Of a stretch of 64,000 bases of DNA, positions 8,563 through 12,021 are shown one piece after another. Positions within the stretch are counted from its first letter, which is position 1, and each line of letters begins with the position of its first letter. The notes beneath the pieces are model-generated. The model had not been told where the DNA came from. It searched no databases and saw only the letters and a list, made by a program, of their open reading frames with translations. Source of the DNA: Shinella zoogloeoides (lineage in GTDB: Bacteria > Pseudomonadota > Alphaproteobacteria > Rhizobiales > Rhizobiaceae); contig NZ_CP131130.1 in assembly GCF_033705735.1 (NCBI RefSeq), positions 2,297,001 through 2,361,000 of the forward strand, read 5' to 3'. The position numbers and the translations under genes are program-made.

Positions 8563-9060
8563 TCAGGGGCGGGCGGCGATCACCTCGATCTCGACGAGGA
8601 AGCCGGGACCGGCAAGGCCGGCCACCTGGAACACCGAGCGCGCCGGCAGGTTGGGCTGCTCCTTGGTGCCGAAGAACTGGGTATATCCTTCCATGAAGCC
8701 CTTGAAGTCCATCTTGCTCTCCTTGGAAGGATCGCCGACGAGGAAGACCTGCATCTTCACCACGTCGCTCATCTTCAGATCCATGCCGGCAAGCGTCTTC
8801 TCGATCGACTGAAGCGCCGAGACGGTCTGCGTCTTGGTATCGCCATAGGCTTCGATCGAGCCCTTCGGCGCCTTCTCGTCGGCGACCGAAGCCAGCGCAC
8901 CGCTGACATAGACGGTCGTCATGCCGGCCGGAATCTCGACCGCCTGCGCAATGGGGAAATCCGAGTTCGGGATCTTGTGACGCGTCACCTCTGCCGCCAG
9001 GGCACCGCCGGCCGTTGCCATCAATGTCGAAAGAACGATCGCACCCGTCATGAATTTCAT
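8563..9060 (-). CDS. Exported RidA/YjgF-family protein
   Basis: The start is the ATG at 9060, preceded by GGAG; it gives 165 residues beginning MKFMTGAIVLSTLMA, a clear Sec signal peptide ending near AAGGALAAE. The mature part is a RidA/Rid-family domain with VYVSGALA, QTVSALQSIEKTLAGM and VKMQVFLVGD, and ends in VEIEVIAARP. Cytoplasmic RidA hydrolyses reactive imines and enamines; here the signal peptide puts the activity, if kept, in the periplasm. The conserved RidA arginine is not obvious at its usual place (PARSVFQV is the nearest), so activity is not assured. It is the last gene of a set with two cytochromes c and an exported amine oxidase, whose expected product is an imine. Confidence 0.85.
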   Translation of the reverse strand: MKFMTGAIVLSTLMATAGGALAAEVTRHKIPNSDFPIAQAVEIPAGMTTVYVSGALASVADEKAPKGSIEAYGDTKTQTVSALQSIEKTLAGMDLKMSDVVKMQVFLVGDPSKESKMDFKGFMEGYTQFFGTKEQPNLPARSVFQVAGLAGPGFLVEIEVIAARP

Positions 9061-9193
9061 TGTCAAAGCTCCGTCATGCAAAGCGCCGCGAACGAAACCG
9101 TCCCGCAGGCGCTCAAATCCTGATTGGTCCCGGCGAAAAATCCACAGGGGCCGTGATGTCGAAGGCGGCGGCCCGGCGGCCGCCGCCATTGTC

Positions 9194-9610
9194 TCAGCGC
9201 GCGTCCTTCACGTCCTCGGCCGTTGCTGCATCCTTGTAGTCGTTGCCGAAATGGGTCCGGACATAGTTCACCACGGCAGCGACCTGCTCGTCCGTCATCA
9301 TCTGCCCGACGGGCGGCATGCCCTTCTGGCCGTGCAGGATGACATAGATCGGGTAGCCCGCCGATTCGAGGTTCTCGTTCTTGGCGAGCGGCGGATATTT
9401 CCCCGCCCCGACAGCCCCCGCGCCCTCAGGCATGTGACAGGCCTGGCAGACATTGGAGTAGATCGCCTCGCCGGTCTTTTCGGAAAAGGTGTCGCCCTGG
9501 CTGAGCGTCGCACCGGCCGAATCCGCCAGCGCGGTTCCCGTGGAAAGGGCGACCAGCGACACGGAGAAGAGCGTCGCAAGCCCCCAGGCGTATTTTCTAT
9601 CTTTCGACAT
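9194..9610 (-). CDS. Periplasmic c-type cytochrome (amine oxidase-linked)
   Basis: I place the start at ATG 9610 (MSKDRKYAWG), giving 138 residues; an in-frame TTG at 9643 has no ribosome site. A signal peptide (AWGLATLFSVSLVALSTGTALA) precedes a single haem-binding CQACH motif in YSNVCQACHMPEGAG, and a candidate axial methionine lies in KGMPPVGQMM. The mature protein resembles small class-I cytochromes of dehydrogenase electron chains. It sits between the exported flavin amine oxidase and the RidA-like gene on the same strand. A GC-rich hairpin at 9164-9187 lies between it and the RidA gene. Confidence 0.88.
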   Translation of the reverse strand: MSKDRKYAWGLATLFSVSLVALSTGTALADSAGATLSQGDTFSEKTGEAIYSNVCQACHMPEGAGAVGAGKYPPLAKNENLESAGYPIYVILHGQKGMPPVGQMMTDEQVAAVVNYVRTHFGNDYKDAATAEDVKDAR

Positions 9611-9655
9611 GGCAGAATGCCTCACTGAATTCTTGGGATTCAACTAACCGGACGC

Positions 9656-11257
9656 TCAACCCTGCATCACCCGCTTGTGCAGGCGCTCGATGGCGTTGAT
9701 CGAGGAGAGGATCGCGCCTTCCTGCCACGCCGGAATGTACGACGCGTGCTCCCCGGCAAGAACGATGCGGCCATCGATCTCACAGAGATTGTCGTAGTGT
9801 TCCTTGCGGGCTTCGTCCGTCCAGTCGCCGGCGCAGCCGAGGGTGAACGGAGAGCGGTGCCATGCCCAGGACACGCCGTTCTCGAACTCGTCCTTGTATT
9901 GGGGATGGATGATCATGCCCTGCTCGACAGCTTTCTTGACGCGTTCCTGCGGCTCCAGCGCCGAGAACTCGTAGGACGCCGGACCGTTCCAGGTATAGCA
10001 GCCGAGCAACACGCCCTTCCCGCCCTTGTTGAAGTCGGTGCTGGGGTAGGAAATATTGGTGATCGGCAGATCCGTATAAGTAACGCCGCCGAAGATGAGA
10101 TCGTCTTCTTCCCAGAAGCGGCGCTTCATCTGCAGGCCGACCTTGACCGACGATGCATAGGGCACCGCGCCGATGGCCGCCTTCATCTTGTCCGAGACCT
10201 GGATGTCGATCTGGCTGAGGATGGTGAGCGGGATCGTGCAAACGCACCAGTCGGCGCTTTCCGTATGGGTCTCGCCGGGCTTGCTCGTGTCCTCGTAGGT
10301 GACGGTCACGCCCTTGTCGCCCTGCTCGATCTTCACCACCTTCGCGTTGAAGGTGATGAGGTCCTTGACCTCCTTGGCGAAGGCGTCGCCGATCCGGCCC
10401 ATGCCGCCGACCGGCTGGAACATGGTGGTCTGGAACTCGTAGAGCGCGAAGTTGGCAAGTGCGCCCCAGAGGCCGGAGGAGAGCAGCTCCTTGAAGGCCA
10501 GCGGCTCGCCGGGGACCGGCTCGGCGCCGAGGCCGCCGCCCGGATCCTTCTCGTAGCCGCGGAACTCGCCCGAGACCGCGCCCTTGGCATATTTGTAGTC
10601 CTTGTCGAGCGCACCCCAGGACCGGAGCGCCTCGAGCAGGATCTCCTGGTCTTCCTTGCCGACGCCCTCTTCGAGCTTGCCCTTCTGCGTGACCTTGGCG
10701 AGCAGTTCGGAGACATGGCCCTGGAAGTCGATCTTCACGTCGCGCACGCGCTGCGGCTTGCCGCCAAATCCCTTGGTGGAATGCAGGAGCGCATTGTGAT
10801 TGATCTGCTGGAACGGCTCGAGTTGTACGCCGAGCCGGCGGCAATAGGCGAGCAAGCCATTGTGATGATAGGGAATTCGCCAGGGGCCCGGATTGATGTA
10901 GAGGCCTTCGTCGAACTCGCATTTCTGCGTGAAGCCGCCGAGTTCCGTCACGGTGTCGCCGCCGCGGATCGTCCAGTTCCGGCCGCCCGCGCGGTTGTTG
11001 TATTCGAGAACCTTCACCTTGTAGCCGGCCTGGCGCATTTCCATCGCCGCCAGCATGCCGGCAAGGCCGGCGCCGAGGATCAGGACCGAGGCGCCCTTGG
11101 GATCGCCGTCGAGTTTCACCGGCCCCTTGTAGCCGGACTCGGCGGCAAGGCCGAGCGTCGTCATCGCCTGGTACATGGCCGCGGTGCCGGCCGTCAGGCC
11201 GATCATCTGCAGCAGCCGGCGCCGGCTCATGCCGATATAGGGTTGTTCAGTCATCAT
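9656..11257 (-). CDS. Exported flavin-dependent amine oxidase/dehydrogenase with Tat signal
   Basis: Start chosen at the double ATG 11257/11254, six bases after GAGG. The 533-residue protein opens with a twin-arginine-type signal (MSRRRLLQMIGL, then a hydrophobic run to GLAAES), so it is folded with FAD and exported. The FAD-binding fold is plain: VLILGAGLAGMLAA, LEYNNRAGGRNWT, and near the end RIVLAGEHAS followed by PAWQEGAILSSINAIERL, the flavin amine oxidase signature. The family includes monoamine, L-amino acid and nicotine-type oxidases; the substrate is not readable here. A cytochrome c gene lies on each side within 40 bp or so, which suggests that electrons go to cytochrome c rather than to oxygen, as reported for the nicotine oxidoreductase NicA2. 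Confidence 0.88.
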   Translation of the reverse strand: MMTEQPYIGMSRRRLLQMIGLTAGTAAMYQAMTTLGLAAESGYKGPVKLDGDPKGASVLILGAGLAGMLAAMEMRQAGYKVKVLEYNNRAGGRNWTIRGGDTVTELGGFTQKCEFDEGLYINPGPWRIPYHHNGLLAYCRRLGVQLEPFQQINHNALLHSTKGFGGKPQRVRDVKIDFQGHVSELLAKVTQKGKLEEGVGKEDQEILLEALRSWGALDKDYKYAKGAVSGEFRGYEKDPGGGLGAEPVPGEPLAFKELLSSGLWGALANFALYEFQTTMFQPVGGMGRIGDAFAKEVKDLITFNAKVVKIEQGDKGVTVTYEDTSKPGETHTESADWCVCTIPLTILSQIDIQVSDKMKAAIGAVPYASSVKVGLQMKRRFWEEDDLIFGGVTYTDLPITNISYPSTDFNKGGKGVLLGCYTWNGPASYEFSALEPQERVKKAVEQGMIIHPQYKDEFENGVSWAWHRSPFTLGCAGDWTDEARKEHYDNLCEIDGRIVLAGEHASYIPAWQEGAILSSINAIERLHKRVMQG

Positions 11258-11294
11258 TTCCCACCTCATTCGATTTCGTTGGACTGCCGATGCA

Positions 11295-11681
11295 TCACTG
11301 GTTCTGGGAAAACTGCTTCAGATAGGCGATGACATTGGCGATGTCCTCGTCGGTCTTGAGCCCCGCGAAGGCCATCTTGGTCTTCGGGACGACATCCTTC
11401 GGCTTGCGCAGGTAATTGGTCAGGCTCTCGTCGTTCCACACGAGACCGCCTTCCCCCGCCTCCTTCATGGCCGGGGAATAGCTGTAGCCGGCATAGGTGC
11501 CTGCCGTGCGCCCGATCACCCCTTTCAGGGACGGACCGACCCTGTTGGTTTCCTGATCGGCGACGTGGCACGCCTTGCATTTGTTGAAGACCTTCTGGCC
11601 CAGTTCGGCATCCTGCGCGAAGGCGCCGGATGCGACAGCGAGGGCGAGAGACATGGGGAACAAGGCGGTAAAAACACGCAT
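11295..11681 (-). CDS. Periplasmic class-I cytochrome c
   Basis: The ATG at 11681 (MRVFTALFPM) follows AGGTG at good spacing; an in-frame GTG at 11690 is the alternative. The 128-residue product has a signal peptide ending near ASGAFAQ, one haem site CKACH in FNKCKACHVADQ, RVGPSLKGVIGR, and an axial methionine candidate in KTKMAFAGL. It ends with DEDIANVIAYLKQF, typical of cytochrome c2/c550-like carriers. It is the promoter-proximal gene of the amine oxidase set, 37 bp ahead of the oxidase, and is a likely electron acceptor for it. Confidence 0.9.
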   Translation of the reverse strand: MRVFTALFPMSLALAVASGAFAQDAELGQKVFNKCKACHVADQETNRVGPSLKGVIGRTAGTYAGYSYSPAMKEAGEGGLVWNDESLTNYLRKPKDVVPKTKMAFAGLKTDEDIANVIAYLKQFSQNQ

Positions 11682-12021
11682 TTTTCTCACCTGTGAGACA
11701 TGGATACATTAGTATGTAAAAACGAAAAAACTGGCTTTCGTTATTTACAAGCCCATATACATAGCGCTCCGTGAGCGGCGTCAATTACTTGAAGAGAAAA
11801 ATTTAAACTTGACAAATCTGCACTACTTAACACGTGCAGCATCTCGTTCGCGCGCCTGTTTTAGCACTTCGAAACAGGCGGATCACCGGTTCCGCAGTGC
11901 TTGCAGCGCAACCGCTAACAAGGGATCTTCGACCGGAAAACGCCCCCGGCCGCCCCGATCCTCCTTCCCCGCCATGACCGGAGGAGCGAAACATAATTAA
12001 CAAGTTCATCATGTCGCGCCG
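11682..12021 (-). promoter_or_regulatory. AT-rich gap with a sigma70-like promoter for the cytochrome c-amine oxidase set (11756-11784)
   Basis: This 340-bp gap has no gene I can support. On the minus strand TTGACG (11784-11779) and TGTATA (11761-11756) are separated by 17 bp, a good housekeeping promoter about 75-100 bp ahead of the cytochrome start. The DNA around it is clearly AT-richer than its neighbours. The left-over part next to mmsB shows no convincing hairpin. Confidence 0.5.

Follow-up and report, generated by a model that had tools for sequence, protein, structure and literature searches.

How an exported flavin enzyme disposes of its electrons, and from which substrate it takes them, is a question raised by four genes in a 64,000-nucleotide stretch of contig NZ_CP131130.1 of the soil bacterium Shinella zoogloeoides (the window; position 1 is its first letter). 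Four uninterrupted open reading frames lie on the minus strand at 8563-11690 and encode, in the order in which they are transcribed, a cytochrome c (CYC2), a flavin amine oxidoreductase (FAO), a second cytochrome c (CYC1) and a Rid protein (RID). A preliminary description of this DNA presented them as a possible self-contained module for the oxidation of amines in the periplasm. We find a genuine unit that is well conserved and makes functional sense, although its core is already known, having been published in 2016 by Rodrigues et al. (PMC5053998) as the lao-cccA-ridA operon (GDI2456-GDI2454) of Gluconacetobacter diazotrophicus PAL5. On the evidence described below, the Shinella unit is probably an L-amino acid dehydrogenase of the periplasm that is linked to cytochrome c.

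All four products score above the Pfam cut-offs (Cytochrom_C / Cytochrome_CBB3, Amino_oxidase and Ribonuc_L-PSP). CYC1 scored 52.6 bits for Cytochrome_CBB3 and 41.9 bits for Cytochrom_C, CYC2 41.6 bits for Cytochrom_C, and RID 68.6 bits for Ribonuc_L-PSP, while the best NCBIfam match of CYC2 was the c550 (CycA) model at 113.3 bits, which is below that model's cut-off of 240. FAO carries the twin-arginine motif SRRRLL, and Sec-type signals were recognized by eye in RID and, for the window only, in CYC1 and CYC2; the signal-peptide and twin-arginine translocation (Tat) tests used throughout were home-made rules and not SignalP. The earlier claims that the four genes lie together on one strand, and that all four proteins carry export signals, are thus borne out.

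The substrate class was approached through the identity of FAO. Its sequence, modelled fold and active-site residues all mark it as an L-amino acid oxidase (LAAO) of the Rhodococcus type. Its nearest solved relative, the Rhodococcus opacus LAAO (2jae, 2jb1), is 35-37% identical (175/471 aligned residues, or 37%), and the FAO model has both the fold and the Arg/Tyr pair for the alpha-carboxylate expected of an R. opacus-type enzyme. Arg131 was found in 125/125 and Tyr425 in 122/125 of the relatives compared, and both are also present in R. opacus LAAO. Since FAO is of the LAAO type, its substrate is likely an L-alpha-amino acid, and our best guess for Shinella is that aromatic amino acids, including tryptophan, are used, yielding indole-3-pyruvate and its relatives. 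On this point the amine oxidation proposed earlier needs correction. Modelling of the oxidase and comparison of its active site with that of NicA2 had also been suggested; the model gave the LAAO-type fold and the Arg131/Tyr425 pair, but NicA2 was not among the listed PDB matches of FAO, which does not in itself exclude kinship. A search of the host genome (5.79 Mb, 4 contigs) with FAO returned FAO itself only.

Conservation was evaluated on named loci, the best 80 among 561 confirmed relatives, a set that leans to close relatives and to Bradyrhizobium (28/80). A further 44 sampled loci, with the Shinella locus left out, came from broader draws within the class (385 genomes) and the phylum (398 genomes); one additional locus (L208) enters the tree and residue counts only, and some loci end near a contig end (550 bp downstream in L084). 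At a threshold of E 1e-60, relatives were found in 19 genomes of the class draw and 27 of the phylum draw, own genome included. According to record titles, the hosts of the named relatives are Alphaproteobacteria, Gammaproteobacteria (Dyella, Luteibacter, Frateuria, Solimonas) and one Eremiobacteraeota bin.

In the 80 named loci, CYC1 adjoins FAO in 79, Rid does so in 57, and both are present in 57 (18 of 24 genus labels), and the twin-arginine motif of FAO is found in all 80. By chance, about 0.6% of positions would have a Rid gene within 1 kb (17 Rid matches in 5.79 Mb), so co-localization of the cytochrome (79/80) and of Rid (57/80) is far above chance. Adjacency in 79 of 80 loci also supports, by analogy, the earlier suggestion that cytochrome c is the likely electron acceptor. 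Sampled loci with at least 42% identity contained CYC1 in 24/24 cases and Rid in 15/24, and those with less than 42% identity contained CYC1 in 1/20, Rid in 10/20 and a diheme cytochrome in 3/20. The CXXCH heme motif was present in 103/104 CYC1 calls, the exception (L077) being a match that begins upstream of the frame, which itself scores 153 bits. The gene order FAO-CYC1-RID of the window is shared by 57 of the 98 loci scanned (54 without CYC2 and 3 with it), with variants in the others. The preliminary description proposed that other genomes be searched for the four-gene neighbourhood; the FAO-cytochrome-Rid core is indeed conserved, but CYC2 lies upstream of FAO in just 3/80 named loci (L038, L039, L056), all from Shinella and Brucella pecoris. 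The conserved unit is thus oxidoreductase-cytochrome-Rid, and not the set of four. CYC2 has one paralogue (43%) elsewhere in the genome.

How the two partners were inherited was examined on a quick tree of 68 rows, comprising 21 of the 80 named loci, the 44 sampled loci, L208, the window, and R. opacus LAAO on a long branch. On this tree, the acceptor label (monoheme, diheme or none) requires 3 changes and adjacent Rid 15 (67 rows, R. opacus LAAO uncounted), and therefore the cytochrome is inherited stably, while Rid comes and goes beside FAO. In three sampled loci (L161, L162 and L164, enlarged as L205-L207; genomes G681, G803 and G808), the interval between FAO and Rid holds a 206-220-residue frame that bears two CXXCH motifs and is by its sequence a diheme c4-like cytochrome that replaces the monoheme one. 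No cytochrome adjoins FAO in 16 low-identity loci; Rid is next door in six of these (L134, L163, L165, L166, L168, L171), and lies about 3 kb downstream in the cytochrome-less L132 and L167 (enlarged as L196 and L198). Among 15 enlarged stretches (L191-L204, L208), a same-strand frame with a single CXXCH was present within 2.6 kb in one (L201).

Residue 427 of FAO, two positions after Tyr425, is aromatic (Trp, Phe or Tyr) in 98/104 relatives adjoining a monoheme cytochrome, Trp in 3/3 diheme-paired relatives, and Trp in just 4/18 cytochrome-less relatives, where the rest have mostly Ser, Ala, Thr or Arg; it is Ser in R. opacus LAAO. This pattern is confounded by kinship. The Bradyrhizobium tropiciagri locus (L108) is the sole one of the 80 with neither cytochrome nor Rid by FAO, and in Solimonas marina (L114) several FAO-cytochrome-Rid genes lie in tandem.

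By sequence, RID belongs to the Rid3-type imine deaminases. Among solved chains it is closest to PSPTO3006 (PDB 9bka; 48% identity) and PFL1385 (PDB 9bkc; 43%), both Rid3, and the conserved Arg is common to all. Ile37, in FPIAQAV, is nearly invariant among the Rid homologues, and, judged by motif, stands at the position of the RidA Tyr. Replacement of this Tyr by Ile is the rule given for Rid3 (PMC4433059). The preliminary description named as its weak point that the catalytic arginine was not plainly conserved. This concern was unfounded, because Arg141 (in PARSV) is present in 58/58 Rid of the named loci and 25/25 of the sampled loci, or 83/83; Glu157 is conserved as well. Of 16 Rid paralogues of the host genome, the model matched 11, and the catalytic Arg was found in 8/11 of these. 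The proposed role in imine hydrolysis is consistent with this assignment. Export of Rid, which had been considered unusual, is the norm in this branch: the home-made rule called an export-like signal in 57/58 Rid of the named loci and 22/25 of the sampled loci, versus 1/11 of the same own-genome paralogues. The Rid of L164 looks exported yet failed the rule, and four sampled Rid (L123, L149, L152, L154) are lipoprotein-like by eye.

Previous studies report that genes for flavin adenine dinucleotide (FAD)-dependent amine oxidases are clustered with those for RidA and in some cases for Rid3 (Niehaus et al., 2015, PMC4433059), and that PSPTO_3006 and PFL_1385 both act on iminoarginine and weaken the imine signal that an L-amino acid oxidase produces (PMC5619798). 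Two loci (L203 and L204; genomes G806 and G754) encode Rid proteins 86% identical to PSPTO3006 and, unlike Shinella RID, these have no signal peptide that could be seen and lie in a cytochrome-less neighbourhood. The adjoining FAO has the twin-arginine motif, so that the two proteins would occupy different compartments.

Whether Rid accompanies FAO at a distance was evaluated in 9 genomes with an FAO-cytochrome pair lacking adjacent Rid and 23 genomes without FAO, a non-random choice from the handles listed. Rid of the same type was present elsewhere in 5/9 pair-only genomes and in 0/23 FAO-less genomes (E 1e-25; Fisher p 6e-4). In two of the five (G311, G215) it was within about 3 kb, and in three (G628, G728, G811) it lay beside a second FAO copy that had already entered the counts as Rid-bearing. 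The other four of the nine had no Rid of this type, and therefore this Rid type goes with FAO, but FAO can do without it.

The G. diazotrophicus operon contains the same three adjoining kinds of genes, with a Tat signal on lao, whose product of 533 aa is reported to be 34% identical to R. opacus LAAO (PMC5053998). In Shinella the three kinds of genes likewise follow one another in this order on a single strand, and the unit differs in having an extra cytochrome gene upstream. Homology is supported by the six published quantitative PCR primers, which translate to motifs matching all three Shinella proteins at corresponding positions (YPSHGYF/QVIHPNY at FAO 406/453, AIYQHV/NYVRSH at CYC1 60/126, and ASTIYL/KLGKID at RID 48/115), a comparison made through the primers only. 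A search for the operon by primer pattern found it in 0/75 genomes of one guessed, probably wrong, family. In G. diazotrophicus, two Tn5 insertions in lao left tryptophan in the medium, abolished auxin and lowered indolic products to 2-4%, and lao was required for conversion of tryptophan to indole-pyruvate and auxin (PMC5053998). The authors proposed that the cytochrome and Rid are helpers of the enzyme, suggested a periplasmic location, noted similar clusters in Caulobacter and Xanthomonas, and cited cytochrome c maturation mutants of G. diazotrophicus with 5% auxin (Lee et al. 2004, as cited by PMC5053998). Among open-licence papers, we found no later work on this operon.

Two further systems resemble the Shinella unit. 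Many of the flavin amine enzymes that are exported via Tat and have a neighbouring cytochrome act as dehydrogenases, according to a NicA2-seeded survey (Akram et al., 2025, PMC12224317), in which the same genetic signs predicted cytochrome-using dehydrogenases and kinetics agreed for clades 2 and 3. The Shinella unit shares with NicA2, Pnao and others of this group a Tat signal on the flavin enzyme and an adjacent Sec-exported cytochrome c, and differs in having an FAO of the LAAO type and a Rid partner. A whole-word search of the main text of PMC12224317 returned none of the words RidA, Rid and imine and a single "amino acid," so that the amino acid branch seems untouched there. In Chlamydomonas, LAO1 and LAO2/RIDA combine a periplasmic L-amino acid oxidase with a putative Rid, converting tryptophan to indole-pyruvate and auxin, and the 2023 paper remarks on the likeness of the pair to the bacterial cluster (PMC10805672). 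Unlike the Shinella unit, this system is eukaryotic, is said to release hydrogen peroxide, and has no cytochrome named in the passages that describe it (PMC10805672). What our analysis adds to the known core is the corrected substrate class, the clean result for the Rid arginine, the finding that the fourth gene is narrowly distributed, and the apparent swap of acceptors. The breadth also seems new: the cytochrome lies beside 79/80 near relatives (the best 80 of 561), one distant branch has a diheme cytochrome, and another has Rid but no cytochrome.

Taken with the parts, their order, the rule-based export signals, the co-occurrence, the modelled fold and the active-site residues read from the sequence, the following mechanism can be proposed. 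FAO would be exported via Tat in its folded, FAD-loaded form, bind the alpha-carboxylate of an L-amino acid through Arg131 and Tyr425, and take a hydride to give the 2-imino acid. The reduced flavin would then pass two single electrons to CYC1, presumably the acceptor in Shinella by analogy with the cytochrome-linked enzymes, and from there to a terminal oxidase, with CYC2 perhaps serving as a second acceptor or an extra shuttle. Rid3, likewise exported, may act on the imine derived from FAO, hydrolysing the imino acid to ammonium and the 2-oxo acid before other molecules can react with it. The host genome has one match to TatC, two to cytochrome c assembly proteins and seven to heme-copper oxidases (two adjoining, perhaps one gene), and the electron chain can thus be completed.

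The dehydrogenase reading must be weighed against a periplasmic L-amino acid oxidase, in which oxygen reoxidizes the flavin to produce peroxide, and the cytochromes are mainly peroxide scavengers or bystanders. A number of observations favor such an oxidase or otherwise count against a dehydrogenase. The nearest solved enzyme bears the name oxidase, and the flavin lysine tied to oxygen use (K376) is retained in 125/125 relatives. The cytochrome is missing beside FAO in 16/20 sampled relatives with less than 42% identity, and most cytochrome-less distant relatives keep the twin-arginine motif, some also Rid; an oxygen-using form may therefore exist in the family. Among the enzymes surveyed, those of clade 1 showed only modest reaction with their diheme cytochromes, and the B. 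anthina enzyme reacted with both acceptors (PMC12224317). The link to Rid is loosened by its absence next to FAO in 23/80 named and 19/44 sampled loci, and in the three genomes where it lies beside a second FAO copy it need not serve the first. In the report on rescue of a ridA mutant, the figure legend names RidA and Rid1 only, and not Rid3 (PMC5619798), so that Rid3 is no simple stand-in for RidA. Finally, the insertions in G. diazotrophicus lao also reduced cccA and ridA transcripts (PMC5053998), which leaves the roles of the three genes unseparated. Set against these points, a lysine of the K376 type is kept by nearly all dehydrogenases too, and FAO-cytochrome gene pairs predicted dehydrogenases in kinetic tests (PMC12224317). 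CYC1 adjoins FAO in 79/80 named loci and in 24/24 sampled loci with at least 42% identity, with just 3 changes of acceptor on the tree, and auxin loss was reported in the G. diazotrophicus cytochrome c maturation mutants (cited in PMC5053998). We consider a plain oxidase improbable.

The two other alternatives concern the substrate. The first, in line with the amine oxidation of the preliminary description, is a NicA2-type dehydrogenase of an amine that is not an amino acid, such as an alkaloid or polyamine, and FAO does share its superfamily and the Tat/cytochrome layout with NicA2 and Pnao (PMC12224317). However, FAO most resembles L-amino acid oxidases in both sequence and fold, the Arg/Tyr pair is conserved, Rid3 works on imino acids (PMC5619798), and the homologous operon uses tryptophan (PMC5053998), making this reading very unlikely. 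A dedicated module for auxin (indole-3-acetic acid) or signalling, rather than for general amino acid catabolism, would be compatible with a cytochrome c-linked dehydrogenase and differ in purpose and substrate range. Many hosts belong to Bradyrhizobium, Mesorhizobium and Methylobacterium, which are plant-associated genera, and lao governs auxin output in G. diazotrophicus (PMC5053998). The neighbors of the unit argue otherwise, since they are genus-local and several are peptide-related (M20 peptidase, dipeptide ATP-binding cassette (ABC) transporter, X-Pro dipeptidyl peptidase), while others are not (TonB receptor, L,D-transpeptidase, molybdopterin oxidoreductase, acyl-CoA dehydrogenase, DXP synthase, SapC). 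R. opacus LAAO, moreover, has a broad substrate range. A dedicated auxin role is possible, but we find it rather doubtful.

The coordinates of the Shinella unit, which we still read as a cytochrome c-linked dehydrogenase, are collected in Table 1.

Table 1. Features of the FAO locus, in window coordinates.
Feature	Position	Strand	Description	Basis
CYC2	11295..11690, GTG start (alternative: start at 11681 in the preliminary description)	minus	Exported monoheme cytochrome c resembling c550 (CycA); opens the unit; lineage-specific	Pfam, NCBIfam
FAO/lao	9656..11269	minus	Tat-exported L-amino acid oxidoreductase, LAAO type, 537 aa	Pfam Amino_oxidase
CYC1/cccA	9194..9643, TTG start (alternative: ATG at 9610)	minus	Exported monoheme cytochrome c, presumed electron acceptor	Pfam
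RID/ridA	8563..9060	minus	Exported Rid3-type imine deaminase, 165 aa	Pfam Ribonuc_L-PSP
Inverted repeat	9164..9187	minus	G+C-rich, few bases past the CYC1 stop codon, inside the 133-bp CYC1-RID gap	Direct sequence reading

The intergenic gaps are 25 bp (CYC2-FAO), 12 bp (FAO-CYC1) and 133 bp (CYC1-RID), and the unit would probably be expressed from one shared transcript. A scan for sigma-70-type promoters found 0 versus 0.9 expected, and terminator-like sites numbered 3 versus 3.3 expected, the inverted repeat not being among them. A longer Rid frame of 208 aa, starting at 9189, was rejected because most aligned homologues start like the 165-aa form. The valine-pathway genes from 12022 upward (3-hydroxyisobutyrate dehydrogenase and others) were also rejected as members, since they were seen beside the unit only in the window and in another locus of the same species (L190). 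The dehydrogenase matched only 2 reading frames across 135 loci, and in S. fusca (L039) the unit is preceded by transporter genes in their place. The flanking kinase was located in 8 other genomes for an empty-site comparison within Shinella, which was uninformative, because in 0/8 did the module or a valine-pathway gene lie within 6 kb beside the kinase.

Neighbors were also screened for hints of the substrate. Beyond the three genes, the only widely recurring ones were ABC ATPases and two unannotated clusters, of which one consists of opposite-strand frames over the Rid region; the annotated recurrent neighbors were genus-local. An M20 peptidase downstream and dipeptide transporter genes were seen in L040 and other Mesorhizobium/Aminobacter loci, whereas in Dyella-type loci (L066, L094) the upstream neighbor is a TonB-dependent receptor or an X-Pro dipeptidyl peptidase. 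Within Shinella, a full-length FAO match was present in 2/20 genomes surveyed (own and one other), the whole unit was found in G854, of the same species, and a record from S. zoogloeoides PQ7 has a 100% identical FAO. Such a patchy distribution is as expected for a unit that was gained or is often lost.

For the family as a whole, we lean toward the view that the LAAO branch of the flavin amine oxidoreductases holds a wide class of respiratory, periplasmic cytochrome c-linked L-amino acid dehydrogenases, in which exported Rid is a recurrent partner and the acceptor was swapped in evolution (monoheme, diheme c4-like, or none/oxygen), so that energy is drawn from amino acids without their import into the cell. 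Among the matches listed (120 of 6586 proteins), such genes currently bear the names monoamine oxidase and tryptophan 2-monooxygenase. The apparent acceptor swap makes the idea of a respiratory L-amino acid dehydrogenase directly testable, and the branches with a cytochrome, without one, and with a different one form a natural set on what determines an oxidase versus a dehydrogenase. Three literatures are joined, on the G. diazotrophicus auxin operon, on cytochrome-using flavin amine enzymes, and on the in vivo role of Rid3. If the proposal is true, Rid3 would gain a concrete candidate substrate and compartment, the reported need of G. diazotrophicus auxin production for cytochrome c maturation would be explained, and in many bacteria the respiratory chain would burn L-amino acids from the periplasm without producing peroxide.

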